Under the pieces are notes generated by a model, which was not told the DNA's origin, did not search any database, and was given only the letters and a program-made list of their open reading frames with translations. From assembly GCF_011397635.1 (NCBI RefSeq), contig NC_064753.1:36933822-36997821 (forward strand): DNA of 64,000 nt, read 5' to 3'. Source of the stretch: Epinephelus fuscoguttatus (taxonomy: Eukaryota > Chordata > Actinopteri > Perciformes > Serranidae). The position numbers were made by a program, and so were the translations under genes. Shown in pieces: positions 902 to 63,260 of the stretch (its first letter is position 1; the number at the start of each line of letters is the position of its first letter).

Positions 902-1071
902 CCTTTGTCTGATGCCGTTTTTCTTGCGGTTGAGGCACATCTCCATAGCTCTCATATGCTGCAGAGTTTCCTTGGCCAACAGGAAGCGCAGTTTCTCCAG
1001 TCTGGGAGCTGCAGACGCCCAGGCAGCCGCTCCGAATCGACACTTATCCTCCTCCATCTGCTTTAACATAC
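902..1071 (-). CDS. whamm: whamm exon 4 (residues 302-358), last exon in window
   Basis: 170 nt. Acceptor TGCACTCAG, donor GTGTGTG read from a CA-rich stretch. It contains FGAAAWASAAPRLEKL and KETLQHMRAMEMCL and ends in phase 0. No further whamm exon is visible in 1-901, so the next intron crosses the window edge. Confidence 0.88.
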
Positions 1072-4000
1072 CTGAGTGCACACAAGGGTTTATGTCAGCA
1101 TCACACAAAGCACATACAGTATATATTAACCAGGGTAAAAGACACAAAACCAAGTAACAAATAGAGGTGTGAGAAAATATCAATGCACTTGAGTATTGCA
1201 ATTTTAAGTTTGTGATTGTGTGCCAATTCTCAAAAATACTGTGTTGATTTTTAATAAATAGTTTGCCTGCAAAAGTTTGTGGGTCATTTTGTGTTTGAAT
1301 CCTCAACCACGACATAGCAGCAGTGTTATTTATTTTCAGTAATTTGACTCTTTTCTTCCAATCCAACAAGATATTGCTTGCATAAACACAAAGAGCACAG
1401 GCCTTTAAAACAGGCAGAGTCCTAAAGAGCGCATTTCTATATCCTAAAATCACATTTAAAAAATACTGCAGCACATCACCTCGCTTAGAGCATCACACTG
1501 TATCGCAATATACTGAATCGTATCTTCTGTACTGTGATATGTATCACAGTATTGTCTAATTATTACAGAGTGGGGCTGGGTGATATAACGACTAACTAGG
1601 ATATATCGATATATTTTCAAGCAAGATTTAAATTCAGACAACACTGTTTATATCGATATAGGGTCAAGTTGCGCCACATAACACATACCAGTGTTCATCT
1701 CTCCTCTCTCACATTCTCTCACAGCTCCACCCCACTCACTCACTCACAAGTTCTCCAGCAACAATCAGAGAGACACAGAGCTGCTCCTCTGTTTAATCTG
1801 TCTTTTCATTAGTGAGACATCGGTCTATATGTTACACGTGCTACGCTAACTCAGTCTGTGAGATGATTGAAGTGACTACAGTAGCACACGTGCAGGACAG
1901 CACGATGCTGCCAGCATTTGTTTGCTAGTCTGTGTGTGTGAGGTGGATCATAGTGCATCGACGTTGTTCTTGGTAGTTGTGATCTAATGTGTGACACCAA
2001 GACAGCGCCTGGATGCAGGCGACAGATGACAAATCCCTGTGCTTGCATTCTGTTTTGGTGACAGTCTGTTTTTATAGAAGTGGCTGTGACATCTAGAATG
2101 TGGCTCTGACTTGCAAATGAACACATGATCCATTTAGCAGAAAATGCTGAAATATATGTTGTGTATCGCCGTTCAGCCTAAAAATACTGAGATGTGGATT
2201 TTTGTCTATATAGCCCAGACCTAATATCTACATTCACTAATTTGCCTCTTGAACTTTTATTGCAAAAAATGCAAACATTTTTCAGGAATGCCTTACAACA
2301 AACCTCCAGCAAACAGACATACATGTGTTACTTTAAACAAATGGTGGATTTAAAGGCACATACTGTAAATGTAACTACAATTACCAGTCTTATAGACAGT
2401 GGATCTAGTGTATCCATATAAATTGTCTGCTTCTTGTTAGTCTCGCCACCAGACAATCAGAGATCTCCGCCTTCTGATAGTCTGGGGACACTCCTTTCTA
2501 AAGTGTGTTTAACACACCGGCGAAAACGGCCGCCAACAAAGCAACGCCTCTTGCATTTTTGAAAAGGACACACCCTCCCGGAAATGTGCACTCCCCCTTT
2601 TCTCGTTTGCAAGGACACAAACACACAGAGAGCTTGAAAAAGGATGCTGAGAGATTTAACTCTGTTATATCAAACGTGTGCTCAGTCCACAAGATTGTGG
2701 ATATGAAGGACTTACAGCAACTTGAGCCATTTTGTACCGCTATATGTGTTTCTAGTGGGACTATGTTTACGAGCACAAAAGTTCAGCGAGCCACCAAAGG
2801 ACCGCCCTGCGGATTTACTATTGGTTCTGCAACGTAGAGAGCTTTTTTAAACTCTGAAATTGTATCTGCCCATCTAAACACAAAATCAGAGAGAAAGTCA
2901 TCAGTCTTTAGTTAAGCAAAGCGTCTAAAGACTGACTTGTGAGTCTAGCTTTTTGTCCTCTTCCCTCAGATCAAGGTAAAAACACCCACATCAAAGATGG
3001 CTGCCAAACAAAGCGAAATTCTTATCCAATTAAAGAGAAAAAAGAGCAGCGATATCCTCCCCCACTGCTTTTTTCCCCTCTCCCTCTTGCTTTGAGCATG
3101 AAATGTATCCCACAGCACAATTACCTGGTATGTTATTATATTTCTTTGAGTCATGATTTGAAATGGTTCTTAACACTTCTATTTCCTTTTAGATGGCAAT
3201 CTGCATTTTGCGTGGACTTTTGGTAATTTTAATATTAGGTAATGTAATATGAATATGTTGTTTACTCAACCCAATCCCCAGAATAAATGTTGGCATAGTA
3301 CGTTTCTACAAACCACAGATATGTTAATATTTATATGTTATTTTGTGGTGGAAATGTTGAAATTTTGTTTCTTAACACTTCAGCAACACTGTGGTTGATG
3401 TGTGGTTATATTTAGGTACAAAAAAACACTTGGTTATAGTAAAACAGAGATCATAATTTGACTTGAAATACCTGATTTTGGTGTCACAACCACAGCTGGA
3501 AATGCTGCTGATGTCTCACTAACAAATAACTGGCTTTGTTTGTTGTTCTCAAACAGTGGTCTGCAGCCGTCTCGCCTTGGTGTCACACCATCTACCAACC
3601 TTTTCACCTCCCAATGACAGTCAGCTCATGTATGTAATCTGAACTACGTCACTTTAGAAATTAATATGATACGTATGAATAGTACAAATGTAACGAATCT
3701 GTGGTTTGCAGAATTGAACAATGCCAACATTTTCTCCTGCCGACTGGCTGGTTTGTCTGCAGCTGCAGCGCAACTCTACTCTCATTTCCTGTGTGTTGAG
3801 GAATGACACAAAAAAGTCATTAATGAATTCACCCCTACACAAATAAAGAGAAATAAACACAGCAACTTATACCAGCCAGAGCCTTTGAAGTCTGTGCAAA
3901 GTAGGTGACAGTGATGTCTTGAATTGAGGCGACTGCGTCTTCCGCTTTCATTCTCCACTCCTCCGCCTCCTTCTCCAGAGCTGCGATTCTCTTAGGACCC

Positions 4001-7000
4001 AAGTCCTCAAACTCCAAAGACTTCTGAAGAAAACCACGGTAAGAGAAACAGTGGACAATTTTACACTTAAGAGCTTTAACGCAGACCTCTTACAGATACT
4101 TAAGCCATATACATAAAAGCTTTTAATTAAAGTTAGTTTAGTGGGAAAATAAAATTCAATCTCAGATTTTCCTCGAATGAGACATAAAAATATGGAATAG
4201 TGTCAAACACTCCACCATCAAGGGCCAACCCTTCCATTAGTGCTTTAAGAGGCTCTGCACTTATAAATTTCAATGCTAAGACTTAAAAAGAGAACTTGTA
4301 GTGATCACTGAATAAAACATACGTACAAATATTGTTTTTTCAGTAACAAAGAAGGCTGCAAGTTAGGGGTTACACAGTGATACTAACGGTGGGGAGGGGT
4401 CAGTGTTAACTGTGAGGTTATGACAAAGAACTAGCATCATGTAGCAGCTATGTGACTTTGAAAAATGTTCTGGGGCTGTAAATCTGATTAAATTTGGATA
4501 AATTTGAATGCAGACCTTTGCTTTGAGGTGAGGATGTTCTACAAAGCTCTTCTTAAATTTGTCTTAAATATTTAAAGGCACAATATGTAGAATTTAGGGG
4601 AATATATTGGCAGAAATGGAATATAATAAGTATGCTTTCAATAAGAATCATTGTGTTTTCATTACCTGAATGACCTGTTTATATGTACATAAGAAGCGGG
4701 TCCTCGCCCATGGAGTCCACCATGTTGCACCACTATGTTTCTACAGTAGCCCAGAACAGACAAACCAAACACTGGCTCTAGATAGTTTTCGTGTTGGCAG
4801 CTCCTTTGTGATGAACAGCTTCGTAAAAACACAGATTTTCTGACATAAAACTGCTTTACTTGGTGTTTTTACAAGTTTAAATCAACAGGTCTGTTTGCTC
4901 TGGAGAGGAGAAGACCTCTGCAGATAATTTGGCTCATGGTAAAAATATCCTGAACATCTGGATCAGAAAAAAAGGCGAGCACACATTAGCAGGTGCAGGG
5001 CTAGCAGCCTGTCTGTGACGAACTGAGTAGTGTCGGGGGAGAAAGTGATTTGTAACATGAAACTGCTTTATTCAGTGTTTGTACTGGTTTTAATTTAAGT
5101 TTTGGAGAGGAAGAGACCTCTGTGGATAATTCAGCTCCCAGCAAAAGCCTCCTTAACAATGAACACTGAAGGAACCCTAACCAGGAGTTCAGGTCTGGCA
5201 CATGGCACTAAATCTTACACATTGCTCCTTTAAATTCCTGATAAGTATATATTCAGTATACCAGAACAAACTGCAAACAGCATCCTGTGTATGAAATCGT
5301 TTAAAACATCCTAAAAAAAAAAAAAAAGCTGACAGCTGCTAAATATACATGTCTGTATTTACCAGGATCTCCATCTTGTAGAGGCAGGCCAGCTCTCTCA
5401 TGTCTCTGAAAGGCTGCAGCAGATACTGGAAGAAGGTGGTGGCCACAGTGACCAGGTCCTGGTAGGCCTCGTCCTCCTCATCATAGATGTCGAGCAGCGC
5501 CACCATTCGGTCTGTGCTGCCATGACTCTGCAGGAGCTGTGAATATGGTCGTAAGACATAAACACCATTACCTGGGTTTATTCTGAGCCCACAGCAGAGG
5601 CTTTGTTCTGCATGACTGTTCATATAGCACTGATTTAACAGTCGATATTAGCCCTAGCAGAATACAACCTTCATAACCAGCTGGGCTGAAGGTTGACCAG
5701 TGAAGCCAGTGGTTAGAGGTTTAATACCACTGGATTCCTGGAGGCTCTTTTCTGACACTCAGCACTAATGCTGAAACAATTCTATCTCTTCAAATTGATA
5801 TTAACAAACATTTTAAATCAAGGTTTCAAGTGATGACATCTTTGGACCACAGACCATATGTGCACCTCGGTCAGCTGGGTCAGAAACTGAAATGCTGTTA
5901 GGTAAAGGGGAGAATGAGGTAAGCTGCCGTAGACATAGAAGTGACTTTTTCTATGTCAGTAAAGATGGAAGATACACATGAGCGATTTGATTCCATGCCT
6001 GTCTCTATATGTGTTGATTTAAGGGGAGCAATATAATGTTTGGCTGTAAGATATAATGCAAATAAAATACAGTATTGCCACAAACTATCGCTTCAGATCT
6101 GCTCTCTGACACAGTATCAACAAAACATCATATGACGTTCATAAAGTTGGCATTTACTGCATCACTGTTGTATCAGATTGCAATATATAGTAGAGTAACT
6201 GATGCTGTGTGCACTGACTGTGTTTTCTCCAGTGTCTCATATCCCTAGGCTTTAACTGTGGAGTTGTAGGCTGCCATTCCACCGCAAGGCACCTCTCACC
6301 ATGTTATTTACTCGTATAGCAGGCACCTGGGGGGACGAGTTAAATTTCTGTGTACAAATCTTTTTAACTCAAATGCATGTCGAAGGAGAAAAAAGAATCA
6401 CAAGCTGAAAAACAAACATCAGTGCTGGTGGTGGTGGTGGTGTTGCAACATCTACAGCACTGGCTTTAACACACAAACAGCTAAATGTTTGCTGTGTCAT
6501 AGTGGACTTGTAACACCACTGTGTGGTGCTAGTCCTGCAGGGTAGCATTCAAAAAGATCTTACAGAGGCTTCTCAAGCTGTACTAAATCTTCCCTTTTCT
6601 TTTATTCAATTGAAACAGTCCCTCAGATAATAATAGTCTGCCGTGTATTTTTTAAGTGCATCAAAGCTAGCTTCTTAGCATGGGTGAATATGAGACCTCG
6701 ACTCGCACATAGGAGCATGACACACAAATTTGTGGTGGTTTTGCTTCTGTTTGTAGATGTGATGCATCTTTTTGTACTTTACTGTCTCTCTGTGGTCACT
6801 TTGTGTCCTCTTGGGGTTGTTTTGTGTCTCTTTGTAGTCACTGTGTGTCTCTGAGGCTGTTTTTTTTGCGGTCCTCTGAGTCTCTGAGGTAATTTTGTGT
6901 CTTACTGAAGTCATTTTGTGTCTCCTCATGGTTGTCTTGTGTCTCTTTGAGGTAAATCTGTTTTGCTTTGAAGTCATTTTGTATCTCCCTGTTAGTTGTT

Positions 7001-8644
7001 TTGTCTTTTTGTAGTATTCTGTTTCACTTTGAAATCATTTTGTGTCTCCTTGGGGTTGTTATTTGTCTCTTTGAGGTAATATGGTGTCACTCTGAAGTCA
7101 TTTTGTGTTTCTATGTGGTTGTTTTGTGTCTCTTTGTAGTCACTTTGTGTCTCTGCGGTTGTTTTGTGTCACTTTATAGTCACTTTGTGTCTCTGTGGTT
7201 GTTTTTTTGTGGTCTTCTGAGTCTCTGAGGTGATTTTTGTGTATTACTGAAGTCACTTTGGGTCTCGTTATGGTTGTTTTGTGTCTTTTTGTGGTCTTCT
7301 GAGTCTCTGAGGTAATTTTGTGTCACTTTGAAATCACTTTGCGTCTGTTTGTGGTTGTTCTACCCATTTTGGTAGTTATTCTGTATCCCTTTGCAGTTCC
7401 TATAAATCCTTTTGTGGTCATTTTGAGTCACTTCCAGGTTGGTACTGATTTATTTGAGTGACATTTTGAAAGTGAAAGCCAGGGCCCCCCTGAAACTCTG
7501 GACCCCTGGGCATGCATCGGGTAGGCGCATGCAGTAATCCATCAATGCCTCTAGACTTCCTCTATGAGTCATGGCTGTGATGCATGGACAAGCCTTCTAG
7601 TCATGATTTATATTCTATGAGCAAAACAAAACATAAGCATAATCATTGGTTTCATGGCATTTTCAGTTCTCTACAGTACAGTATGTGTCGTAGATGCCCC
7701 CACAATACTAGTCTAGTCTAGGTCAACAGCCCTTTAATAATGGTTATACTGTGTGGGTCAGTGCTGCATCATACTGAGAGGTGTCTATAGTTAGTCTATC
7801 CTCATCAATATATAGGATTGACAAAATATTGGAGGATACACCTCTCACTATCATCATCATCATCACTAGAGCCTCTAAACTGAAAATTAAGTTGAGTAAA
7901 CACCTCTACAACTGAACCTTGACGCAGGGTTGTGGTATTAGACTGCTAGGTGTCCCTAATAAACTGGCAGCTGACAGTATATGCAGTTACCCATGCCTCT
8001 TGCACGCTGTGACCCGGAAGTGAGCACCCGTGGCTCATTATCCCACAGCTGTCACAGCACCTCACCTGTCGCACGTGACCCTTGGCCCGCGACATCTCCT
8101 CCTGCATCGTCTTCCTCTTGAACTCCTGCAGGTTTTCAAAGTACTCCTCCACATCCCGCTCGTCCTGCGTGAACAACGTGTCGAGCACGATTTTCCGCCC
8201 GCAGATGTCGATAGCTGTGCTGAAGTATTTCTCCAGTTTCCGACACGGCGTGTCAAAGTCCCTCTCGTCGTCGTCTCCGGGACCTGACCTGCGGTTCAGG
8301 AAGAGCAAGTCCCAAATGTTGCCGTCCTCAAACTCAGACAAGTCCGGGAAGCAGGTCGCTAACACGTCAGCCACACATGTGAACTGCTGATGGATGTGTT
8401 TCAAATCGTTAACGGAGAAGAGTCCAGCCCAGCTCATCTGAGAGTCGCCGCCGACGACAACTTCAGCTTTGCGTTTCTGCCGTTGTAACGTCCGGTTGTG
8501 ACAAGTGACGGCGAACTTACACTCTATGACATTCCACTGTACGATAAAGCCGAGCTTAAACGTCTCCGGTTCTTCAAATATGTTGCTTTTAACCGCCACC
8601 CAGCCCTCCAGACTGTCTAACCGCTCTATCTCTACGTTATTCAT
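902..8644 (-). CDS. whamm: whamm, 5' part of gene (4 coding exons; continues past left edge)
   Basis: WASP homolog associated with actin, membranes and microtubules: a nucleation-promoting factor that binds Golgi/ER membranes and microtubules and activates Arp2/3. Four exons (8066-8644, 5363-5536, 3873-4023, 902-1071) join in one frame and give about 358 residues. The start has the family's DSLEGWV and FAVTCHNRT motifs (membrane-binding N-terminal region); then come MVALLDIY, FFQYLLQPFRDMREL, DLGPKRIAALEKEAEEW and SIQDITVTYF, the start of the coiled coil. These match WHAMM better than its paralogue JMY. The rest of the coiled coil, the proline-rich stretch and the WH2/acidic tail are absent and must lie left of base 1. 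The start codon is the only upstream ATG in frame and sits just below a CRE/YY1-like promoter. fsd2 lies head to head, as in the human 15q25 block. Confidence 0.93.
1571..2222. repeat. Inverted-repeat DNA element in whamm intron
   Basis: The left end GGGCTGGGTGATATA and the right end (reverse complement GGTCTGGGCTATATA) form imperfect terminal inverted repeats about 650 bases apart, the size of a non-autonomous DNA transposon. It has no coding capacity. Confidence 0.4.
2440..2850. repeat. Probable dispersed repeat in whamm intron
   Basis: GC-richer than its surroundings, with a 110-codon ORF on plus (2505-2837) that matches no family I know. Internal near-palindromic segments (CAGACAATCAGA and TCTGATAGTCTGG) suggest a transposon relic. 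Class not determined. Confidence 0.25.
3873..4023 (-). CDS. whamm: whamm exon 3 (residues 252-302)
   Basis: 151 nt. Acceptor TTCTTCAG, donor GTATAAG, leaving one base of a glycine codon that the next exon completes. It contains DLGPKRIAALEKEAEEW and SIQDITVTYF. Confidence 0.92.
4571..5233. repeat. MITE with terminal inverted repeats (whamm intron 2)
   Basis: The left end TTTAAAGGCACAATATGTAG pairs with the right end, whose reverse complement is TTTAAAGGAGCAATGTGTAA. Two internal segments are related: one with ACTGCTTTACTTGGTG and one with ACTGCTTTATTCAGTG. Related sequence recurs at 36170-36425 and near 39155. Confidence 0.65.
5363..5536 (-). CDS. whamm: whamm exon 2 (residues 194-251)
   Basis: 174 nt, phase 0 at both ends. 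Acceptor TTCACAG, donor GTAAAT. It encodes the conserved segment with MVALLDIY and FFQYLLQPFRDMREL. Confidence 0.93.
6680..7560. repeat. Minisatellite-bearing repeat (whamm intron 1)
   Basis: A degenerate tandem array of units such as TTTTGTGTCTCTTTGTAGTC, often with GTGGTTG, runs from about 6720 to 7430. It is flanked by sequence also found at 11430-11735. The array has no stop in some frames and yields spurious ORFs on both strands. Confidence 0.75.
8066..8644 (-). CDS. whamm: whamm exon 1 (residues 1-193)
   Basis: Start codon at 8644-8642. The 579-nt exon ends in phase 0 at CAG followed by the donor GTGAGG. It encodes the N-terminal membrane-binding region, ending in the residues GHVRQ. 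Confidence 0.93.
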
Positions 8645-8701
8645 CTTAAAAGAGCTGTTTCACTTCGGCCTCTGAGAAGCTGCTGGCTCTGTTTACAACG
8701 T

Positions 8702-9687: not shown

Positions 9688-9957
9688 ATGGATTGTAAAC
9701 CTCCCACAGCTGCCATCCTCATGGACCTGTATGAGATCAGAGAGGAAAGACTGGATGTGATTGCAGAGGAAGCTGAGCACCAGGAGCTAAGCATGGCGGA
9801 CAGAGGAGTGAGGCCGACCCGAGGAGTTTCCAGCTTCCAGAAGTTCTCTGTAGACACCGAGGACTCCCTTCGATTTGAGCCGTGTGAGGACAGCCTTCCA
9901 TCTCCCACCGGGGCAGGACTTGACGACAGTGATGTGTTTAATGAGGGACAAACTGAG
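9688..9957 (+). CDS. fsd2: fsd2 exon 1 (residues 1-90)
   Basis: 270 nt, ending in phase 0 at GAG before GTGGGG. The N-terminal end is the least certain part of the model: if the acceptor-like CCTCCCACAG at 9700-9709 is used, the true first exon lies upstream and this is an internal exon starting at 9710. Confidence 0.75.
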
Positions 9958-12900
9958 GTGGGGACACTAACACAGATTGGGCACATGATGCACTAATGGA
10001 ACATTTGATATTTTCTTATTTTATTCCACCTATGTTCAGACTGGTAGAAAAGATGTGAAACAATGCAAAGATGTAAGTGTGCAGAAATATCTTTGCCAAG
10101 ACTAAACTGGGTGGTGTGGTAGTTGCCCTGCATTATTCAACCTCTGTTTAATTATGGTGGTTTCTTGGGATTTAAATCACTTTTTCTAGAGGGTGTCAGT
10201 GAAATTGGCATCTTAAACCAGCACCTCAAGAAATACAAAGATTAGTGAAAAACAAGCTATTACAACGTCAAAATTCTTGACTTTAACACATGCACATTCA
10301 TCCATTTATTTCCCTAAAAAATTCCATGACATTCCACTCAAGGACTGTGGACCAACATCTGTAATTTCACATTTCTTTGTAGCTAACTTTCAGGAGATGA
10401 AGAAAGCCACATGAAAGCTTCTTTTTCTTCCAAGCTTCAGACAACATGAACAGAAAGTCCCGACAGCACCAGCTGCAAAATATTTACTGTTACTGTTTTG
10501 AATTAAAAAGAGAAAGATGTATGACTTTCACTTGTTTTCAGGATGAGATCGTCATAATCAGGAATCGGCTGCAGGGGAAGGTGGCTGAGATGGAGAACTT
10601 TGCAGGACATCTGGAGGAAATCTTTCTCACTGTAGAGGTAAATGTCGTCCTCAGAAGACTAAGTTCAGCGAAACAGGTTGTCCTAATGTGTTTTGACAGT
10701 GATTTATTATTTTATGGCTGTGTGAGGGTTTTGGGAATACGTACTTTTTTATTGTTATTTAGTTTTATTAAACTCATAGACAGTAATAAAGTTCAAGATG
10801 TCAGATTTCAGTTTTGTAAGTCCTGGAGGGCCTGAACACATCCATTTCATTCACTGCCTCCCTTGATCTGTCAGCTTTTTCTCTCCATATTTGGTTTAAT
10901 GCACAACACATGTAAATCTCTAACTATGAAATATATGTACAGGAGAATTTTGGCCGTCAGGAGCAGCACTTGGAGCAGCACTACAACGATGTGCTGCAGA
11001 CGTTGTCTCAGCGATATGACGAGAGGGCGGCTGGATTGGAGGATGAGAAAAAAAGCAAGCTGGAGTCCCTGTACAAGCAGCTGCTGGCCTGTGGTCACGC
11101 GATGGATGCCTCCAAGGAGCTCATCGAGACGGCCCAGGAGATTTACCGCAGCCAAGACAAGCGGCTGTTCCTGAAGGTGCCGTAGCTTGTGGTCTTGTAT
11201 GTATTGGATGCAGATTACAGTCACATGCATGATGATAAATGGCTCCAGGAGTTGGTTTAGCCGTCGTAGTCCTGATGTGGGTTTGATTTATTTGTATTTC
11301 TACATTTATTGACTTGGCTTTATTGCTGTCTTTGACCTTTATTGACAGACAGTTATGCCCGCCATTAAAAGGTAATTATGATGCTGCTCAGTAGGTATGC
11401 CGCATGGCGTGACAACTGCACTGACTGTGACTGCAGTGTGACCTCAGGAGACTAACCATTATTGGCACAGGGCTAATATTCATAGTAGGATTATGAGACA
11501 ATGAGTCCCTGGGCACAGATATGCAAAAGGCCCCACCACCACTCTTACACAGGAGCAAGACACACAGACTTTGGTAGTTTGGCCACTTTTTGTTATGTTT
11601 TGAGGACATTTTTTTTGAGCCTCTTCCAGGTCGGCATGTGTTAATTTGAGTGACATTTTGCGTGTAAAGGCCCCCTGACACCTTTGGAACCCCCTGGGCC
11701 TGGTAGGCCTATTCAGTAATCCATCCATGTTGATATTGTGTTTCCAAGTGTGTTGTGCCTGTAGTTTCAGACTAATATTATGTAAGTAGACACATTCGAA
11801 GAGTGACAGTAAATTCTTGGCCTTCGAAAGAAGAGCTTTGACATTAAAATCCGTACCAAAGGTCGACTTCCTAGCTTATTGAAGAGCATTGCAGTTGCTC
11901 AGTTTCCATGACAAATGAGCATCAATACGGAAGACCACAAAATGTTCCAGAAAAAGCTAGAAAGTGGATCTTGAGTTGTTTTTTTGTCAAACTAAATGCA
12001 TTTTGAGTGATTCGAATGAATGGCATGACACAAACTGCTTCACCTTAAATGCTACCTCGTAGTTTTCAGAGCTCATTTTGTTTTTCTTTCAGAATTGAGG
12101 AGTTTGCCAAAGAGGATGTTGACCTCACGTTGTCTACACGTCTGGAGTTTGACACACCACTCGCTGACCTGTCAGATGTCAAAACCATGATGGACTCTAT
12201 CAACGTTGTTCCAGGTAGGGGTAGGCAATACCACAAAATCTGGTTTCAGTTTGATACTATGTAATACAAGGCCAGAATCACTGACATCATTGCCAATACT
12301 TTTTATTATTAAAAGCAGCCTATGAACTTTCATGTAGGTAAGAGCAGTGTGTCATAGTTTATGAGGTGAGTTATCAGTCTGCAGAAGAAAAAGAAAAGAA
12401 AGAAAAATGTCCTCTTTGATTTTACTAACAGTTTATAATGCACTGGTAAAAGCTTTAGTGAAATCTCAGTTTTAAAGTAATTGTTTTATGGATAAGAATT
12501 ATAATAAACAGACCAAAGGTGTCAGTGTTGAGCTGTCATATTGCTTCTTATGTAAACTGCTCATCACAGGTTTAATAATGTTTCTCCAATATAAAAACAG
12601 CTCCATCTGCCCCGGTGATCAACCCCCAGATGCCCAACTCTGCCACCCAGACGTCCCTGCGCGTGTGCTGGAGCTTGTTCTCCGACGACACGGTGGAGTA
12701 CTACGAGCTTTACTACAGACCGGTGCTGGAGGACACACCAGCAGACAGCACCTGTGCACCACCTGGTATGACAAAGAGACACTGGCTGCAGATTCACACT
12801 GCATGATAACACCATCTACTGTTGAAATAGTATCTATTGATGTGGGACTTTGTCTGAAGGTTCCTGGTGACGTGTTTTGATCAGCCACATTTTAAATCTG

Positions 12901-15900
12901 TGCTGGCTTTTCAGTAAGCAAGGTGAACGTGAAGGAGACCCACTGCACCGTGACAGACCTGCTGCCCAATGCTCAGTATGAACTCTGGGTGACTGCTACC
13001 AACACAACAGGCATCAGCCCAGCCAGCGAGAAGGCCTTATACATGACAGGTAATAAAATGTTGCATTCCTGTAACTACACAAGGAGTCGTTAACCCTCTG
13101 AGACCCACCATAGACCTTTTTAGGGGGGACAAGGGATCTTTATGGGGGAGATAGCAGGTTAATAGTATACGCCATACAGAAGTGTTATGCATCATCTGAA
13201 AGCTGGGAATCTGAAGACTTATTTGAGATGCAGCTTGGCACTGTGTCAAGTTTTTCAAGTTATACATCTGTCCTATTCAGGGCTTGATTATGTCTCAGAA
13301 ACTGTTAATGCAATTTTTGGGTTGATACCATCTGTAACACAGATTTGGCGATCAATTTAAGCTTCTTTTCTTTTACATTTGAGGACCGATAAAAATGTCC
13401 CTCCAGAATACCACATTAAGACTCAAAGGCTTTGAGGAACACTGTAGAAAAATCCATGCTGTGATTTGGTATGAAAACTTTCTGTAAGAACTGCATTTTT
13501 TTGGTGATTGCACGGTGAGCACTTCTGTTCTGGAAATTGCTGAGAAACCCCCATATTGTCAATATACCTTTGAAAACCGTCCATCCTCTGCATGCCTTCG
13601 GTCTGTAGTTTGTGGTTGCAAAGTTTCATGTGGCTCTGATTATCTGAGAGGTCACAATAGGTCAATTTATACAGTGATGCCTGTTTCAAAAATGGCTACT
13701 TGGGGACAGACATCACACATGAATAAAATTGGGCTCATTGAGTCTGCAAGAGATGCAGTTTTCCAGCCATATTCAATTTATACAATTCCAAGACTGTTTT
13801 GGAACCCCATATGCAGAAATATTTAAATACAATAGGCGAAAATAAGATATCTGTACTGCATTCAAACAGCTGTGTGTTTTTTGCCACAAACTGCATGGGG
13901 TTAGCATGAAGTGGGCATGTCTGTAAAAAGGGGAGACTTGTGGGTACCCACAGAACCCATTTTGATTCAGGTATCTTGAGGCAAGAGGTCAAGAGACCCC
14001 TGTGAAAAATGGCCACGCCAGTTTTTCCCTCATCAAAATTTAGCCTAATTTTAGAGCGATATTCTTCCTGACAAGCTAGTAAAACATAGTTGGTTCTCAG
14101 CCCGTTCCAGCCTCTGAAAGACACAAATGTTGGCAGAGATCACCGGCAGTTCTGCAGTTGAAATAGTTGTTCTGTTGTCTTTCTCAGGATGTCCCCTAAA
14201 ATGCCTTATGTTTCTATGTTGTAGTCACTTCAGCCTGTTATGATTGATGATGGAGTGAATAAAGTCAAAATGGTTTATTCCTCTCTGTGTCTGTAGTGCC
14301 GTCGCCTCCAGTGATCAAGCAGAGGGAGTGTACGAGCTGTCCAGAGGCTGCTCTGATCCGCTGGGAGTCAGGGAACACCAACCCTGTAGACTCTTACACT
14401 GTGGAGCTCAGTGAGATGGGCACTGATGGAACAGAGAGCGGTATAACTGAGTAAGAGCTGTGTTACTAACATGCACCTACAGCTGACAGATTCAACATAG
14501 AAACAAGCTCAAGATTCAACTGTGCTTTCATTAAGATGTGTCATGTTTTTTAAAGAGTTCACACAAAAATAAACTAAAAATGGCGATGTTATTGGGAAAC
14601 TTCTGTATTTTTGAACCTGGGCCCTTTTTTTCCCATGTTTTGGGAGGGTGCTTTCACACCTGCCCTGTTTGGGTCAGTTCAATCGAACTCAAGTTTGTTT
14701 GCCCCCTGAATGCGGTTTGTTTGGGCAGGTGTGAACACAGCAATCACACTTGGATGTGCACCAAAACAACCAGATCAAGACCTTTTTGAAGATGTGGTCT
14801 CTGTCTGGTTACAAATGAACTCTGGTGCAGTTCGTTTGTTGTGAGAATGTGTTCCGACCTGGATCTGAACCAACTGCAGTCACATGACACATTGTTTGGG
14901 TTAAACATGAGCATGTTACAGTCCTGGAGGATTATTAATGTGTACCTCCTCCTGTACTGCCTTAATATGCACATTCAGCACATCCAATACATCAAAACAT
15001 TGTTTTCTAGTTGGAGCTGCGCCTCGTTTTCAAACTGTATGGTTTGACTAAAATGAACAATGACAGCAATATAGTCCACGATGAGCAGCGCTAAAATCAA
15101 CCTGTGTAGTTGTCCCTCCATTGTGACATTAGAAAGTGTCACACTTATCTTGCAAGTGTACTCTTCTTCAACGTTTGGTTTACTTCCTGGATTTTTCCCA
15201 CATGAAAATTCTGACCAATCGAGAGCAGCTTTCTCGGCAGGCTTTTGATCTGGTCTGCTTGTAAATGCTGCCGTGAGAACACAAACCACCTCTTGGCAAT
15301 TATGCAACAATGTAACAAAATTAGTCCCTAATTCGGACCAAAACAAGACAACTCTAGGTCTGAAAGCACCCTAAGTGACTAATGGAGACAACAGTTTTTG
15401 AAACTGGTCCACTACTGAGAAAGAGCACTGCAGCCGCATCAGCGAAACAGGCTGTAATGTAATCTCCATGGGCAATTGTACACCATCAATTTACGTCGAT
15501 TAAAAGTGTGTTTTTGTAACCGACAGACTCAGATCGTTAATATACGTGTCTGACAACATTACGAAAGGATCCTACAGAATAATTAAACAGTCCGTTTGTT
15601 AGTATGTGTAACCAAGTCTCGCTCAAGGAGAAGTCTTCTTTTAGAAACACTAAGCTAAGCTTTCTGTACACAGCAAACTCTTCCCAGCACTCCTTTCCCC
15701 AATCCTCGCTAACATTTCCGCCATTGTTTTTCCTGCAACAAGTCACCTCTTGCAAGATTTCAGAATGAGACTTCTCCTTGAGCGAGACTTGTTTACAGTA
15801 ACAAACAGACCAAAGGTAAGGGAAAATGTTTCATTTGTCTGTTGGATCCTTTCTGTAACGTTGTCAGACACTTAACAAAAATAAAAATTGGAGCCTGTCA

Positions 15901-18900
15901 GTGGCAAAAACAAACTGTTTTGAAGGATTTAAATTGATGATGTCAGGCTGCAATGTTCTCTCTTTATACAGGACTCATTTCAGAAAGTGTCTCCAGTAGT
16001 CACTTAGATATAAAAACAGGAGAAAATAGTCCAGGTTCAAAAATTGCAAAGTTTCCCTTTAAAACAAAAATGCTCCACTTCAAAGAAGCAGCACCCCCAC
16101 GATGTTTATCTCAACTGGCCCATCCTTTAATAAAGCTTTTGCTTCAATACATCCATAAACAAGCCTGTGTTAGTGCTTGCCTGGGATTTTTTGAGGTCCC
16201 ATGGTTATAGAGCTGCTGAATCAAGACACACTCTGTCCCAGAAAATCTATTCTTAGCCTCAGCTCCTGCAGCACTGTTAGCCTCAGCTAGAATACCGTCC
16301 TCGCGTTTGGGGTCATTTTCATTTTTCATCCGGTCACTTCGGAGAACAGTCAAACCTGTAATTTGAATAATCTGTGTTTTCATGCATAAAGGAGCCTGAA
16401 CTGTATTCACTGAAATGGATCCATGGTGCAAATATGAAAGAGCTCTTAGTTTAACACCTCATTTATCCACCTGGTGTTTCACAAGTTGTGAGACAAGATG
16501 TTATTTCAAGGTCTTACGCTCTGTTAGCGAGATGGAAATTAAAGCCCGTCCCAGAAAGTTGTCATCATTGTGCATTTAGTTTATTCAAAAAGGAAGTGAT
16601 ATCAGCCTTCTGTCCCATTGGTTAATCCTCCAGGTCTATAGTAGCCGTGCCCACCTGTCAGTGTCTGATCCAGCTGCAGACAGGACGCCGTTACCTCATC
16701 TCAGTGAGAGCAGTCAACATTGGCGGGCCCAGCGACAGGAGTGAGGTTATTACCGTCTCCACAACAGGTGAGAGGATCAGCCTGTTCATGGTACTTTTGG
16801 GCAACGGTGGGAGAAGTATTTAAATTATTTACTTAAAGATATACTGTGCAGGATTTTCTGAAAAAAACAAACAAACAAACAAGCAAAAACACAATGTTTA
16901 GATTAATACAGAAGTAATCCCTCTAAACCATGACCCACTGTATGCTTGGTGGTGTTTTTTTTTTTCTGCAGAGACTCTCCTCTGCCTGTAGTTATTTCCT
17001 TCTAATACTCTGTGTTCTTGATGTTCATGGGTGTGTACCCCCACAACGCTCAGGTGAGGTCAGGGCTTTGTAAAAAGGTAGTGACCAGGGGCTGTATTCA
17101 CAAAGCTGCCCAGTACAAAGAGTTGCTCCCAGTGATGAAATTTCTTCTCTCTCCAAACTCTGGATGACAGTGAGATGAAATGCTACAGACTAGACTGTGT
17201 GGGGATAATATTTGTGGTTAATGTGATGAGGGATACGCACACATTTCCCACCGAACACCATAAATAAAATGATCACAACACTAAGATATTTGGAAAACTG
17301 GAAAAATTCAACAGTGCAGCAATAATGACCCGAGTCTGTCTCAACCTCCCATCGGCAGAGTGATCACACTAACAATGACACTTTCACAGTCAGCAGTTCA
17401 TTTCATTTCCACTGGGTGTTCACACCTTGCAGGCTCACAAAGGGGCGTGTCAGTGACAACCAATCACATCTGTTAAAGAATGCATCATACCAAGCAAAGG
17501 GGTCACCCACACCTCCTCACCCAGGTAAAAGTTTCTGTCCCTTCCTTGCTCAGAGTTGCTTTGAAAACTTTCCTAAATCACTCCTAAGCTCCTCCTTACT
17601 AAAAACATTCAGGCTAAGTTTAGGAGCTCTCTGAGAGTGTTCTCAGAATGTTTGTTAATACGTCCATAAAGTGGCAAATTGGCTTTTACTTTCACTTTTG
17701 CTGCCAAGTGTTTACAAACAGTAACTGACAATCCTGCATAGTATGCCTGTAAGTAAAGGTAGCAATACTGATTTATAAAAATATCCGGTATATTGGGTAA
17801 AAGTTCAGAATTTTATTTAAGCATAATCCAGAGGTATCCGCAACAAAATGCACTCAAAGCATCAAAGTAAAAGTACTCAACCCAGCCTCAGGTGACCACT
17901 GAGATTCATCTTTTACAACCCTGTAAAAGACCTGTACGTCCTGAGTTGCAGGTTGGGAACCGCTGCATTAACATGTAAGTGATCAAGGTGCAGCTAATCT
18001 CATATACTGTTAGGTAGTTTAACTTTAAAAATGCATCATATTTTATACACTTGTGCTTTTTGTTTTAGATATAACATTGATCTGAAAAGTGACTACTAAC
18101 TAAAGCTGTTTAATAACTGTAGTGGAGTGGAAGTATAAGTCAAGTTAAAGTTTATTACAGCCTAATATCATGAAGCATACCTTAAAGGGCTGAACAAATA
18201 ATAGTTTTGAATTAATCTCAATTTTATTTTATTAAGTCCAACATCACACAGTGATCACAGCTTTAATCACAGTTTGCCTCAAAGGGCTTTACAGCATTTA
18301 ACACCCTTCTCTCCTTGTATAATTGGCATTAAATTGCCAGTTCAAGTCCCTGTCCACACCAAATATGGAGAGTGGACTGGTCGCTGGAGAGGTGCCAGTT
18401 CGCCTCCTGGGCACTGCCAAGATGCCACTGAGCAAGACACCAAACCCCCAACTGCTCAGGGTGCCTGTTCATGGGCAGGCATCTTTAATGTATAGGTCCT
18501 GTTTGCATGTGTGTGTATTTCAGGCCTGTGTGTATTTCAGGTCTGTGTGTGTATGACAACTGAGGAAAAAACACTGCGTTTCCCCTTTCTTCAAAATGGC
18601 GCCTTAAAATTTTATTAAAGTACTTCAAAATGTATTTAGTCACCTTTCATTCCTACTGCTTTTTATGCTGTTTACCTATTTAGGTACACTGTTCTATCTC
18701 CTGGAGGACACTGCTCATCCCTGCCTGTCCCTCTCTGAAGACGGCTTCACCATCTTCTATGGAGATGAGGAGCTGCCAATCAGCGCGATGGCCTTAGACG
18801 ATAACAACGCCTTCACCAGGTAAAGTATACATGGCTGTGTGTGTGACAGTGAGTAATGGGAACTGTTAAGGTCAGAGTGTAGATGTGTTAAATGTGTGTG

Positions 18901-20637
18901 TGTACAGATGTGTAGCTGTCCTGGGGGACCTGATCCCAGTGCGAGGCAGGCATTACTGGGAAGTTGAGGTGGATGATGGGACGGAATTTCGGATTGGAGT
19001 TGCATCCGAGGACACGGAGAGGAACTCGTACCTTGGAGCCAACAACACCTCCTGGTGCATGAGACACATTCTCACTCCAACCAGGTAACAGTGCACCATC
19101 TCTGTTAACATAGCATCACTGCGGATATTAACTTTAATGTTCTGTTTGGAGACCAGCTGTAAGACAGTTACATACAATAGATTTTCATATGTTTTAAATC
19201 AGATTTGTAACGATTAATCGATTGTCTATTAAATTAATTGCCAAGTAATAGTTTGAGTAAGAAAAAAATAAGTCAAATTCTCTGATTCCATCTTCTTAAA
19301 TGTGAATATTTTCTGGTTTCTTTACTAATTATCTTTGGGTACATACACACAGATAATTTGACAGTGAAAATATTCATCAGTTGCACCCCTACTTTATATC
19401 TCTGATTGGCAGTGACGGTATTTTTACTTTTACACAACACTACTCCTCCCAAATCCCAAATAAGTTGATTAGGATTTCTGTTAATGCAGTTTCATAACCA
19501 TCTGATCCAAAGTGTTCAGTAATGTCACACCACATGATGCAATACTGTACATTTCCTTCTTTGTGAAAGCAAACAAAAGAAATAAATATTTGTACAGCCC
19601 ATAATTTCCAAAACAATAATTTTGTCTTTGTAAAACTTTCCTGGAGCCAAGAAAAGTGATTTAATAATCTGTGACATTATCACAATGTAAAGCAGGGACG
19701 CATGATAACATCAGCAGGTCATCAGCAGGGGAAAAAAAGTTGATACATCTATATCGTTAATGGTCAGATGAGTTGTTGCACGACTGCATATTCAGTGGCC
19801 CGTAAACCCCAGAAGTTCACAAACTTTTTTGGCAAAAGCATCAGTCAAGCAACTCCACTGACATGAACAGATGCCATCTTGTGTTCCTTCTGCACAATGA
19901 TACAGTTTGGTACAAAGAAAATTTATTTCATCTAACTGCTCACAACAAGGTCTGTGGATTAACGTAACCTGGTCCTGATATCTGCAGAGACATTGCTGTT
20001 GAGTTTTCCAACTGTATTTCTTGGCCCATTGTCATCTAGTTCCATCATACTTGAGAGAAGGCAGACATCTGTACAGCCGAAACCTTCAACACTCAGTAAT
20101 TCCAAAACAATCAAGATTGAGAAGTGGCACAACAGGAATGAGGAAAAATGTGTACTTCTATTTTGTGGTCAACTGTCCCTTTGTCATTTCCATAATTTGT
20201 AGTTTTGTTTTATCAAAGTCTGTTTGTGGCAGAGAGAAGGGTTACCACTTTAATACTTTTCCATTTATAGTTTATTAATAGTTAGAGGAAAATAAAAAAA
20301 AAACACTCAAAACATATTTTGGGATTAAATTATTTTTAGACAAACCACTGTGGGGTCTTTGAGTTCCCAGACAATGACTTGTAAATTAAGTTTCAACAAA
20401 ACCCCAGGGTTAAAGTAGCTTTGGTTTTCTGCTCAGTCACTGCATGAAATTTACTTCTCCCCGTTTCTTCTGCACGCTGGGGAAGAACTGGCTTTCATGT
20501 TCACATGACTACACAGACCAAGTAGATGTAGTTCTGATAGCACAATTAGCATGCTGATCCTCCGAGGGACGACTACTGCAGTACACAGAAACTGGGCCAA
20601 GACTTTATTTATAGCCACCAGAAATTTTCCTTTCCTT

Positions 20638-20675
<38 letters not shown>

Positions 20676-21339
20676 CGCATCTGCTCCATGTAAAACTAAG
20701 CCCATTGAAGGTAGAAAAGCCCACAGTTGAATATCTGTGACTTTTATGAGTGTTGCTATGGCAACTCTTCTTGGAACAAAGCAGGACAGTTGAATTGTCA
20801 CATCTAGCAGATCATTCAGTGCGGCATATCACACAAGCCCTGAATGTGGTTTCCATTGTGGGCATCTTCTTGGTGATTCTGCCTACGCACAATTTAACAA
20901 TCACATTTCTCATTTTCTTTAATCTGCAGCCATTTGAAATCCTGCTATTGGCTCATGATTCAGCATCTGCTTTACTTACGGCTGACAGAGTGGGAAAATT
21001 ATCTGGACGGGATGAGAGAAGGAGCTTTATATTTAGAACTTCTCTGCTTTACAACCATGATGTTCACCCTCTTATTTTTTACCCTTTAGGCATAAGTTTG
21101 AGTTCCTGCACAATGGCTGGACTCCTGACCTGAGGATTACTGTGAACCCAGTGCGGATAGGAGTGGCACTGGACTACAACAGGGGAACTCTGTCCTTCTT
21201 TAATGTGGATCTGGAACAACACCTACACACCTTCCAATGTCATTTCCGAAATTATGTCCACCCCTGCTTTGGCCTGGACAACCCAGGAGCTCTTACTGTT
21301 CACAACGGCATAGAGGCTCCCGAGTATGCGTTCATCTGA
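9688..21339 (+). CDS. fsd2: fsd2, fibronectin type III and SPRY domain-containing protein 2
   Basis: Twelve exons join in one frame to about 631 residues (human about 750). Layout: a short acidic N-terminal part with [13 protein letters not shown], like the human N-terminal MDLYD; a coiled coil (about 95-245) with [19 protein letters not shown]3 domain 1 (about 248-348) with [10 protein letters not shown] and [14 protein letters not shown]3 domain 2 (about 349-444) with [10 protein letters not shown]; and a B30.2/SPRY domain (about 450-631) with GRHYWEVEV and [15 protein letters not shown]. In mammals the protein is muscle-enriched and linked to the sarcoplasmic reticulum. The cysteine/histidine zinc-binding segment of human FSD2 before the coiled coil was not found here. 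The start is the first ATG in frame (9688); 9721 is an alternative, and a splice-acceptor-like CCTCCCACAG (9700-9709) lies between them. It converges on khdc4. Confidence 0.93.
10040..10072 (+). CDS. fsd2: Possible 33-nt microexon of fsd2
   Basis: The stretch sits between TATGTTCAG and a consensus GTAAGT donor, is open, and is 11 codons long in phase 0 at both ends, so it can be included or skipped without changing frame. The peptide [11 protein letters not shown] has no match I recognise. It is not counted in the 631-residue model. Confidence 0.3.
10542..10637 (+). CDS. fsd2: fsd2 exon 2 (residues 91-122)
   Basis: 96 nt, phase 0 at both ends, acceptor TTGTTTTCAG, donor GTAAAT. It encodes the start of the coiled coil, [17 protein letters not shown], very close to human FSD2. 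Confidence 0.92.
10943..11176 (+). CDS. fsd2: fsd2 exon 3 (residues 123-200)
   Basis: 234 nt, phase 0 at both ends. It is charged coiled-coil sequence beginning ENFGRQEQ, with [13 protein letters not shown], and ends FLK before a GTGCCG donor. Confidence 0.92.
11349..11371 (+). CDS. fsd2: fsd2 exon 4, a 23-nt microexon
   Basis: Exon 3 ends in phase 0, but exon 5 needs two bases before its first one. This segment, between TTATTGACAG and GTAATT, has exactly the needed length. It encodes TVMPAIK plus two bases of the next arginine, matching the human DAVAMAD segment in length and position. Confidence 0.85.
11430..11735. repeat. Second copy of the 6680-7560 family, without the array
   Basis: It shares GAGTGACATTTTG, AGGCCCCCTGA-like and CAGTAATCCATC blocks in the same order with 7420-7550, and the GGAGCA(A/T)GACACACA block with 6710. 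The tandem array seen in the other copy is missing here. Confidence 0.6.
12093..12214 (+). CDS. fsd2: fsd2 exon 5 (residues 208-249)
   Basis: 122 nt, acceptor TTTCTTTCAG, donor GTAGGG. It ends the coiled coil and contains [16 protein letters not shown], matching the human linker before the first FN3 domain. Confidence 0.92.
12601..12765 (+). CDS. fsd2: fsd2 exon 6, first half of FN3 domain 1
   Basis: 165 nt, phase 1 at both ends. It contains [10 protein letters not shown] and [16 protein letters not shown], with the FN3-type tryptophan. The donor is GTATGA. Confidence 0.93.
12915..13049 (+). CDS. fsd2: fsd2 exon 7, second half of FN3 domain 1
   Basis: 135 nt, phase 1 at both ends. It contains [21 protein letters not shown], the FN3 F-G strand region with its conserved tyrosine. 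The donor is GTAATA. Confidence 0.93.
14297..14450 (+). CDS. fsd2: fsd2 exon 8, first half of FN3 domain 2
   Basis: 154 nt. It contains VPSPPVIK and [18 protein letters not shown], nearly as in human FSD2. It ends GA before GTAAGA. Confidence 0.93.
14646..15371. mobile_element. TIR DNA transposon relic in fsd2 intron
   Basis: Termini GGGTGCTTTCACACCT and AGGTCTGAAAGCACCC are near-perfect inverted repeats, 726 bases apart. On the minus strand it encodes [20 protein letters not shown] and following residues, also found at 27314-27472. The superfamily was not determined. Confidence 0.65.
16634..16767 (+). CDS. fsd2: fsd2 exon 9, second half of FN3 domain 2
   Basis: 134 nt. It contains [23 protein letters not shown], an FN3 F-G strand. 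The acceptor is ATCCTCCAG and the donor GTGAGA. Confidence 0.93.
18243..18560. repeat. Dispersed teleost repeat in fsd2 intron 9
   Basis: Contains GGAGAGTGGACTGG, GGCACTGCCAAGATGCC and CAACTGCTCAGGGTGCCTG, segments I recall from many fish genomes, followed by short TGTGTGTATTTCAGG tandem copies. Assignment is from memory, not a search. Confidence 0.5.
18684..18819 (+). CDS. fsd2: fsd2 exon 10, start of B30.2/SPRY domain (PRY part)
   Basis: 136 nt. It contains [17 protein letters not shown], the PRY-type opening (compare DTCHPWLTISEDG in human). The donor is GTAAAG. Confidence 0.92.
18908..19084 (+). CDS. fsd2: fsd2 exon 11, central SPRY
   Basis: 177 nt. It contains [19 protein letters not shown] and NTSWCMRH, core SPRY strands. 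A TG-rich tract precedes the acceptor TGTGTACAG. Confidence 0.93.
20641..20672 (+). repeat. 32-base poly(A) tract in last fsd2 intron
   Basis: An uninterrupted run of A within the last intron of fsd2. It could be the tail of a retroposed sequence, but no body is recognisable upstream. Confidence 0.8.
21090..21339 (+). CDS. fsd2: fsd2 exon 12, end of SPRY and stop
   Basis: 250 nt including the TGA stop at 21337-21339. It contains [27 protein letters not shown] and [18 protein letters not shown]. Confidence 0.93.
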
Positions 21340-23662: not shown

Positions 23663-23793
23663 TTATGAGTTATCTGTCTTACTGCTGCGTGTCCTCTCCT
23701 CTTCTTCATCGGAGGAGTCTCCTCCGTAGGGCACTAGCCCTGATGCATCTTCGTCCACTTTAGACTTCTTCTCGCACACCTCCTCTTCAACAC
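23663..23793 (-). CDS. khdc4: khdc4 exon 14, C-terminus and stop
   Basis: 131 nt, ending in TAA at 23665-23663. It contains [14 protein letters not shown], matching human [14 protein letters not shown]. The protein stops soon after, so the human tail beyond this motif is shorter here. Confidence 0.93.
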
Positions 23794-26700: not shown

Positions 26701-29700
26701 TTGGTCACCCTGTGGGATTAGTTACAAGACATAAAAGAGTACTCACGTTGTGTTGAGCCTGTGGCTGTGTACATCGACATCATACGGGTACTTTCAGCTC
26801 TCACCTGGAGAGTCAAAGAAAACCAAAACTATGTAAGGAGCTACAAAACAATTCACAAAGGCTGTGCTGATGTATTTTCAACAGCTGAGTTGCATTGTGG
26901 GTAGGTGCAGAGCACTCAAGACCTATCTCTGGAGATCAGGTGGTTCACGCTACCACTTTTACTTTAGGAGGTGGGTATCAGTGAAAACTATATGCTTTAA
27001 TAGTTTCACCTTCTTAAACCTCCCATCAGACTCATATAATACAACTAAACTTACACAACTTCATTTGTGGTGACAATATCATGAACTTACAGTTTCCAGC
27101 AGACTCTCAGTGAGTTTCTTCGCTGACTCCAAACCAGCTGCATTTGGGTGGCTGTGACACACAGATGGTCATGTGTTAAATATGATGAAACAGAGAGCAA
27201 AAAGAAAGAGGTTTTAGCATTTATATGCAGCAGGGCACGTAGACAGCTGATTCAGGGTATATTCAGATGTACAGTTGTCTTGCTTTGGTCTGAATGAAGC
27301 AAAGCAAGACACAATGGAGGGACAACTACGCAGGTTGATTTTAGCGCTGCTCATCGTGGACTATATTGCTGTCATTGTTCATTTTAGTCAAACCATACAG
27401 TTTAAAAATGAGGCGCGGCTCCAACTAGAAAACAATGTTTTGATGCATTGGCTTGCTGTATGTGCATATTAAGGCAGTACAAGGGGAGGTGCACATTAAC
27501 AATCCTCCGGGACTGTAACATGCTCATGCAAAGTATTCAATAATTGAAAATTTAAAATCCCATTCTCGACATTATGATCACCTTTGACAATTTAATAAGA
27601 CCAGGCTGTATGTTCTTTACGGATGAATCAATTGGATGGTGAAACATAACTTAATATAAACATTTGTGTTATGTTCACATTTTAAGCTAGGCTACTTCTG
27701 GAGTTTTGGTGAGGATGGCTGAGCGACAGCAATCGTAAATGGATGCAATCTGACTAGCACCCCGTGCATAAAAGCCAGTGTATGGTCGCATTTTGGCTTT
27801 TATCAAGTCGAAGGACAAAGGGACTTGGACAAGAGCCACACTGTATGCAAGTTGTGTCTAACTAACATTTGTTACTATTGTATTAATGAAAGGTAACAAA
27901 AAGTAAATTCATCTGTTCATTAATTATGGATCATCACAAATACACTGTAAACGTATATAAATGTGGCAAGTTGTCACAGAGTGAGAAAACATAAATCAGT
28001 AACAATCATAAATCCTGAACAGTTAACAAAAGGTGACCATTTGAAGTGAACATACCTGATGTAGACGTAAAGAGGCTCAAAGGACTCTCGTTTTGATGCT
28101 TGTTCAATGTAGCCAGAACCTTTTCCCCTGAGAAAGACTCGAGCCCCTGTCTCTGACTGGATGTGACTCAAGTACGAACCTCCTGGACCCTCAACCTTTT
28201 CGTTCACGTTGAACGAGGGCAACACGTGGTCCAGACCCACAAAAATCTTTGTGTGCACAAAACTCTGTGGATGTAGGAAAAATGTGATAAATAATTAGGG
28301 TTCTTTATTGACATCTATAAGTCAGAATAGGATGTAGAGCGGCTTTGTAAGCAGGTGCAGAAATCCAAGGCTTTTCCCTTTCAACCAGGGACGTTCTCTC
28401 TGCTGCTTAATTTAGGAGGTGGGTATCAGTGAAGACAACATGGTCTTCATTTGCCTCACTTTCTTAACCTCCATTTGTAAAATCCTGACTCTGACATGAG
28501 ACGTCACAGAGAATAGATATTCAACACAGAAGACATGAGCTACATTATGAATTGTATACAACATAATCCTGATTTCACTTTGCACATAAACTGATTTTCA
28601 CGTGCCACAGTTACACATCAAAATAAATGACTATTGCTTTATTTTAGAGCTCAACTGATTCATTGGTTTGGCCGATGAAGCAGCACCAATAGGACTTTTT
28701 CTACAAGCTAGTGGCCGATGACTGCGCTGCCTCCGTTTTTACAGTTAGTTTGATGTTCAGTTCTAGATTTGTTTGTTAATTCCTTTGAGTTTGTTGTTTA
28801 GTTACAGGCAGATAAATATTAATATAAACACCATGCCCGTTTACCCCTGAATGAGGAGCTGCCGGCCGATGTCCTGGCACTGAGTTGGTGGTGGGCATCC
28901 GTGGCACAGGTGGGGTGACAACGGGGCGAGGAGGCTGAGGGTAGAGTGTGAGCGGTGGCATTACAGGCACCTGTTGTCCTCCTGATGCTGCTGAGGCCCT
29001 CAACACGTCCTCGGAGATGATCTCCTTTATCCTCTGCACAGCCTCTGATGATGCAGAGATGTCAACAATCAGCCGTAAACAACAGGCATTTGTGAATTGC
29101 ATTAGATGAAGATGATGCCAGACTCTGCATACTGAGGAGATTTTCAAAAAGTGCTACTTACTATTGACCTGCTCTTGGTTCTTTCCCTGGACATGCAAAT
29201 ATAAAGGTCTTTGTCTGAAAGAAAGCAATCAGAAATGTCATGGACAACACAGAACTTCTACATTCTTCCATACTGCTGTTCTCTTATCTTCTCATTATCA
29301 TGGCAACACTAGTGAATTTTATTTCATATGGTAACTGACTGATTTAATTTTTATTCCATGGCGGTGCCCTTAGGACTGTGTCAATAACTGCAATACCACA
29401 GTCATGTGATGCCTACCACAGGGGTGAGCTACTAACCATCATCACCACCATTTTTGTTCTTCCTTTTATTGGCTGGTGAAAGTTACAGGAGTGCATATAA
29501 TCTTTGTTTAATTGTTATCATGTATCATGACCCGTCTGCACCGGCTGTGTGCAGGCTCGAGTCTCGGCTGTGTCTCATGGGCAATACAGTGACCTGAAGT
29601 GTTTATTTACCCTTCAAGTATTTATTTATTTTTTTTACAGTAAGCACATTAAAGTGAGGTTAATGCCAAATGAAAAAGACACTGAACATTTTGCAAGCTA

Positions 29701-38548: not shown

Positions 38549-63260
<24,712 letters not shown>

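Follow-up and report, generated by a model that had tools for sequence, protein, structure and literature searches.

It has been reported that human KHDC4 hosts two box H/ACA RNAs, SCARNA4 (ACA26, RF00423) and the 18S guide SNORA42 (ACA42) (PMC6466398; articles are cited here by PMC number, from excerpts). This confirms the host that a preliminary description of the present locus had named for human SCARNA4, and means that a pair of H/ACA RNAs in KHDC4 is not new in itself. Human KHDC4 is located on chromosome 1 (PMC10682241). In Xenopus, the 5' pocket of SCARNA4 has U2-41 as its target (PMC8522698), and a chicken relative of ACA26 pairs at U2-41 over 6+7 nt through its 5' pocket and at U2-39 over 7+4 nt through its 3' pocket (PMC2653536). 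SCARNA15 (ACA45, RF00426) is carried by a non-coding host gene, SNHG21 (PMC8271217), which lies at 15q25 antisense to FSD2 (PMC4924754). One account assigns ACA26 to U2-39 and U2-41 and ACA45 to U2-37 (PMC7960923), the latter in partial conflict with a SCARNA15 knockout in which U2 Psi39 was lost and Psi37 was not significantly changed (PMC8271217). SNORA47 (HBI-115, RF01234) is a 28S guide (28S-1766) hosted by ZBED3 (PMC6466398). Chicken also has an orphan H/ACA RNA, GGoACA5, in intron 6 of KIAA0907, for which the excerpted text gives no target (PMC2653536).

The window analysed here, a whole stretch of 64,000 nucleotides of Epinephelus fuscoguttatus DNA, contains a splicing-factor gene of the KHDC4 family (khdc4) with two related H/ACA RNAs, copies A and B, in separate introns (Table 1). 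We consider it likely that these form an intragenic pair of guides in a KHDC4 paralogue at the place held in human by SNHG21 and SCARNA15, and that the guides of both places descend from a common ancestor in a KHDC4 intron.

Two H/ACA RNAs in introns of khdc4

By its sequence the host is a KHDC4-family gene, as had been proposed: it has the KH domain listed in Table 1, and this exon and the next are identical to human KIAA0907 (2yqr, the best solved structure) at 61 of 88 residues. Exon and intron bounds were set partly by eye, and a single 904-nt intron, free of copies, separates introns A and B. If one exon precedes the exon at 33.4 kb, copy B also lies in intron 6, like GGoACA5, the comparison being one of host position. 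The last khdc4 exon found (23666-24085, minus strand) stops shortly past a DSSDEEEE motif; the C-terminus of human KHDC4 we take to be longer.

Table 1. Features of the khdc4 locus and its neighbours, by position in the window. All pairing is with an assumed U2 sequence.
Feature	Position	Strand	Remarks
WHAMM-like gene	875..8659, approximate	-	PF15920 E 3.2e-92, PF15871
FSD2-like gene	9688..21336, approximate	+	SPRY E 7.3e-8; named from domains and position
khdc4 exon	26747..26804	-	downstream of intron A
Intron A, 286 nt	26805-27090	-	carries copy A
H/ACA RNA copy A (predicted)	26893..27026	-	hairpin-hinge-hairpin-tail
Copy A ACA box	26896-26898	-	ACA + 3 nt, RNA end at 26893
Copy A 3' pocket, 3' arm CUCUGCAC	26905..26912	-	has UCUGCACCU in common with copy B
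Copy A 3' pocket, 5' arm GUGAACC	26942..26948	-	eroded counterpart, by alignment
Copy A H box AAAGUA	26960-26965	-	
Copy A 5' pocket, 3' arm GAUAC	26975..26979	-	pairs U2 36-40
Copy A 5' pocket, 5' arm UAAGAA	27011..27016	-	pairs U2 43-48
khdc4 exon	27091..27151	-	upstream of intron A; frame continues from KH exon
khdc4 exon with KH domain	28056..28264	-	downstream of intron B; PF22675 E 2.2e-31
Intron B, 580 nt	28265-28844	-	carries copy B
H/ACA RNA copy B (predicted)	28343..28474	-	H box, ACA and folds
Copy B ACA box	28346-28348	-	RNA end at 28343
Copy B 3' pocket, 3' arm UUCUGCAC	28355..28362	-	pairs U2 31-38, mismatch at U37
Copy B 3' pocket, 5' arm GAGAACG	28392..28398	-	pairs U2 41-47, 7 pairs
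Copy B H box AAAUUA	28408-28413	-	
Copy B 5' pocket, 3' arm GAUAC	28423..28427	-	against assumed U2
Copy B 5' pocket, 5' arm UAAGAA	28461..28466	-	against assumed U2
PDE8A-like gene	38552..59796, approximate	-	PDE8A_N E 4.7e-12, PDEase_I

Both copies have the H/ACA layout of two hairpins, a hinge box of the form ANANNA and an ACA three nucleotides before the 3' end, and the RNA ends lie 88 nt (A) and 78 nt (B) from the 3' splice site. With boxes and ends located, the earlier proposal of two H/ACA RNAs ending 78-88 nt before the 3' splice site is confirmed at the level of prediction: A and B are two predicted intron-encoded box H/ACA guide RNAs. The CAB box has the consensus UGAG; a motif scan combined with the folds finds UGAG once in each copy, both times outside the terminal loops. 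The 5' loop of copy B, AUGAAG, has the loop letters of the SCARNA4 consensus.

The two RNAs align with 98 matches over 140 positions and 7 gaps (E 1e-15), and this similarity ends close to the ends of the RNAs, the flanks having none that could be detected. Retroposition was considered from the extent of the homology, which stops near the RNA ends, and was not adopted. The best explanation is that A and B probably arose through copying of one RNA inside the host gene, which is the main route by which chicken snoRNA paralogues arose (PMC2653536). A similarity search of the intron between them gave no third copy (best match E 1.2). A model built from the A and B pair gave one further match in the 64 kb, at 32221-32329 (22.7 bits, E 0.0025), and two weaker ones (E 0.64 and 8.6); the first was judged a chance match and rejected as a third copy because it has neither UAAGAA nor GAUAC and lies inside an open reading frame with weak GIY-YIG similarity. 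This frame (32199-32525, minus strand; E 0.0007, 20.3 bits against a cut-off of 22.6) is in a khdc4 intron, and by resemblance we take it to be perhaps a Penelope-like retroelement.

Folding of the whole RNAs was more stable than that of shuffled sequences (z -2.70 for A, -2.79 for B), that of the 5' hairpins was far more stable (z -4.46 and -3.78), and the 3' hairpins were no more stable than shuffles (z -0.62 and -0.46). Among ten 5' hairpin pairs in register between the copies, six are the same, two have changed on one side and two are compensatory. A further seven pairs were counted in A only and nine in B only, six of each being an identical lower stem displaced by a one-base slip of the alignment.

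Complementarity to U2 snRNA

All pocket tests used an assumed U2 sequence. Vertebrate U2, LSU and the two RNAs gave no match in public collections of viral contigs, genome contigs (LSU stretch only), plasmids and phages (copy A only), where vertebrate DNA is not to be expected. Against the assumed U2, the identical 5' pockets of the two copies form 6+5 pairs around U41, as the preliminary description had it, and in both the 3' arm begins at the canonical distance from the H box, 14 nt. When the pocket edges were kept narrow, U2-41 was the best site for A and the second best for B among seven RNAs of assumed sequence; with free edges and one mismatch, it ranked third (A) and fourth (B) of 236 uridines. 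A fit as good at that site was reached by 36 (A) and 34 (B) of 2000 shuffles, and at any of six U2 sites by 356 and 354 of 2000. Energy by itself is therefore not the main ground for the assignment, which depends chiefly on the two copies having the same pocket and on the U2-41 target known for Xenopus SCARNA4 and the chicken relative of ACA26. The arms UAAGAA and GAUAC are, letter for letter, those of the SCARNA4 consensus. Both copies probably direct the same modification, at U2-41, as predicted from these pockets.

The 5' hairpin of copy A (26958-27010, minus strand) also gives a weak match to snoR104 (23.9 bits, E 0.012), a family that we take to be of plant origin. The snoR104 consensus also has GAUAC, and this RNA is perhaps a plant guide of the U2-41 type.

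The 3' pockets of the two copies differ. In copy B, U2-U39 is flanked by seven pairs on one side and by one pair, a mismatch and six pairs on the other, and ranks first of 236 uridines (assumed U2, one mismatch allowed). Fits of this quality were reached by 5 of 2000 shuffles at that site and by 18 when any of six U2 sites was accepted, and the pocket is suggestive only, because an equally good site occurs in 17 of 200 random RNAs of the size of U2. Copy B may keep a 3' pocket for U2-U39, as is predicted for the chicken relative of SCARNA4 (PMC2653536). By the same assumed target, the candidate pocket of copy A is eroded and fits U2-39 poorly: with the aligned 5' arm GUGAACC it gives -11.6 kcal/mol, fifth in the list, and with free edges U2-39 ranks ninth of 236 uridines, is equalled by 73 of 2000 shuffles and draws its letters from the lower stem. 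As a 3' target, U2-37 was rejected: of 2000 shuffles, 988 did equally well for A and 498 for B.

The 3' arm letters that the copies have in common, UCUGCACCU, could instead serve to guide 28S rRNA rather than U2-39, which would make A and B mixed snRNA/rRNA guides. Chicken provides a precedent in H/ACA RNAs with predicted targets in rRNA as well as in snRNA (PMC2653536), and both copies have nine nucleotides of complementarity to a conserved LSU stretch, although this comparison is biased because the stretch was of assumed sequence and selected for matching. Copy A reaches -30.8 kcal/mol there, where 20 random RNAs of LSU size go no further than -30.0, but copy B reaches only -24.0, inside the random range (best -26.5), and the stretch is tied to no known pseudouridine at that uridine. 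We regard an rRNA role for this pocket as improbable.

The state of the 3' halves also bears on whether either copy, or each of them, is a pseudogene in decay, one working U2-41 guide being enough and copy A being on its way out. Decay would account for 3' hairpins that fold no better than shuffles and for the poor U2-39 pocket of copy A, but not easily for 5' hairpins that are intact in both copies and carry compensatory changes, nor for boxes and spacing kept while the flanks have no detectable similarity. Such decay we think the least probable of the alternatives considered here, and we infer that both RNAs are expressed.

Placement among the RNA families

Searching Rfam with both copies gave no match at gathering scores, which are 60 for SCARNA4, 65 for SCARNA15 and 45 for SNORA47. 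Below these thresholds, copy A matched SNORA47 (42.4 bits) and SCARNA4 (38.6 bits), and copy B matched SCARNA15 (43.6 bits) and SNORA47 (39.6 bits), with E-values from 1.6e-5 to 7.6e-4 for the whole window. The lack of any Rfam H/ACA match, which the preliminary description had named as evidence that would count against it, is therefore found at the gathering cut-off and not by E-value. SCARNA4 and SCARNA15 are members of one Rfam clan; no SCARNA4 match is listed for copy B, presumably because a lower-scoring match in the same clan is left out. Neither copy matched the SNORA42 family.

The 5' hairpins alone gave SNORA47 as the best raw match (36.7 bits for A, 35 for B). Identity with SNORA47 was rejected: although no family scores higher for A, the pocket arms fit U2-41 and are unlike those of the SNORA47 consensus. 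Comparison of 5' halves among A, B and the consensuses of SCARNA4, SCARNA15 and SNORA47 showed resemblance in all ten pairings (z 2.9 to 10.2), with no more than 7 of 1000 shuffles doing as well in any of them; the set consisted of these five sequences.

The label of a duplicated SCARNA4, under which the pair was first described, holds in that there are two H/ACA copies with a U2-41 pocket in introns of a KHDC4-family host; the Rfam scores are not specific to SCARNA4. The resemblance to SCARNA4 lies in this pocket, the host and the H/ACA architecture. The differences are a score for copy A well short of gathering, two copies in one host and a gene neighbourhood other than that of human KHDC4. 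To SCARNA15, the locus is linked by the best clan score of copy B and by the possible U2-39 pocket in its 3' half; the SCARNA15 consensus has a UAAGAA-like 5' arm without GAUAC, whereas the window copies keep GAUAC.

Gene neighbourhood and a possible origin of SNHG21

In the window, khdc4 belongs to a block (875-59796) in which WHAMM-like, FSD2-like, khdc4 and PDE8A-like genes follow one another, with khdc4 and the FSD2-like gene converging from opposite strands and the PDE8A-like gene coming after khdc4. The FSD2-like gene also has PRY (E 9.2e-5) and fn3 (E 0.053) matches, each below its cut-off. The WHAMM-like gene is closer to WHAMM than to JMY (36 against 29 of 48 residues identical, and 27 against 24 of 44, all with human pieces of assumed sequence). 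The PDE8A-like gene is identical at 67 of 74 residues to human PDE8A (3ecm) and is closer to PDE8A than to PDE8B (67 against 63 of 72, and 28 against 18 of 32; human pieces of assumed sequence, except PDE8A in the 72-residue piece). This neighbourhood matches human 15q25, with SNHG21 and SCARNA15, and not the place of KHDC4, which we take to be 1q22; the match is built on WHAMM, FSD2 and PDE8A and leaves out the SCARNA15 neighbours AP3B2 and CPEB1. Human PDE8A we take to lie at 15q25.3 and human SNORA47 near PDE8B at 5q13.3, the window copies being near PDE8A, and the three regions 1q22, 15q25.3 and 5q13.3 are, we assume, left by early vertebrate genome duplication. As a locus, then, the supposed duplicated SCARNA4 has the expected KHDC4-family host but sits in the region of human SNHG21 and SCARNA15 and not beside the neighbours of human KHDC4.

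Published maps place CPEB1, AP3B2, FSD2, WHAMM and HOMER2 at human 15q25.2, PDE8A being absent from the 12-gene human list in the excerpt of that article (PMC7487592), and in dog AP3B2 adjoins FSD2 (PMC4461293). The host of the window copies has the FSD2 and WHAMM neighbourhood of SCARNA15 and the same orientation antisense to FSD2, and differs from SNHG21 in being protein-coding.

A simpler history would be a plain duplication of SCARNA4 within the orthologue of human KHDC4, moved in one lineage, the match to the position of SNHG21 being coincidental. It is consistent with a KHDC4-family host, KHDC4 being the human host of SCARNA4 (PMC6466398), with a 5' pocket that has the very letters of the SCARNA4 consensus, and with the prevalence of intragenic copying in chicken (PMC2653536). 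It leaves to chance the match of three neighbours (WHAMM-like, FSD2-like and PDE8A-like) to human 15q25, and copy B has its top clan score with SCARNA15; we hold a moved orthologue to be unlikely.

In the history that we prefer, one guide RNA in a KHDC4 intron would have been copied within its host gene to give A and B, and this host would be a KHDC4 paralogue standing where humans have the non-coding SNHG21 with SCARNA15. A single ancestral guide in a KHDC4 intron would have given rise, through the genome duplication of early vertebrates, to SCARNA4 (host KHDC4), to SCARNA15 (host SNHG21) and perhaps to SNORA47. On the way to humans, the host at 15q25 would have lost its protein and its RNA would have specialised on U39, and A and B would be sisters of SCARNA15 that retain the SCARNA4-type pocket for U2-41. 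The absence of GAUAC from SCARNA15, together with the loss of Psi39 in its knockout (PMC8271217), would agree with the two RNAs having shared out the work, position 41 falling to SCARNA4 and 39 to SCARNA15. We lean, with somewhat less assurance than for the history above, towards human SNHG21 being what is left, in non-coding form, of a KHDC4 paralogue that is still a protein gene in this vertebrate, and towards SCARNA4, SCARNA15 and SNORA47 being sisters derived from a guide for both U2-41 and U2-39, whose targets were split or changed after duplication. Gene order and RNA similarity hint at this origin of SNHG21, which was placed by position. It is the surprising part of the proposal, and a search of one literature collection with the two words KHDC4 and SNHG21 (not KIAA0907) found no paper naming them together.

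The proposal would give the snoRNA host gene SNHG21 a concrete and checkable origin, and likewise the split of U2-41 and U2-39 guides between two human scaRNAs. The fish gene would also be a natural case in which one gene makes two guides to a single uridine, only one of the guides having a good second pocket, by which the worth of Psi39 and of Psi41 in branch-site recognition could be separated.

Elsewhere in the window, a weak SCARNA7 match of 30.4 bits, below its threshold of 65, lies at 8738-8882 on the minus strand, just upstream of the N-terminal exon of the WHAMM-like gene.
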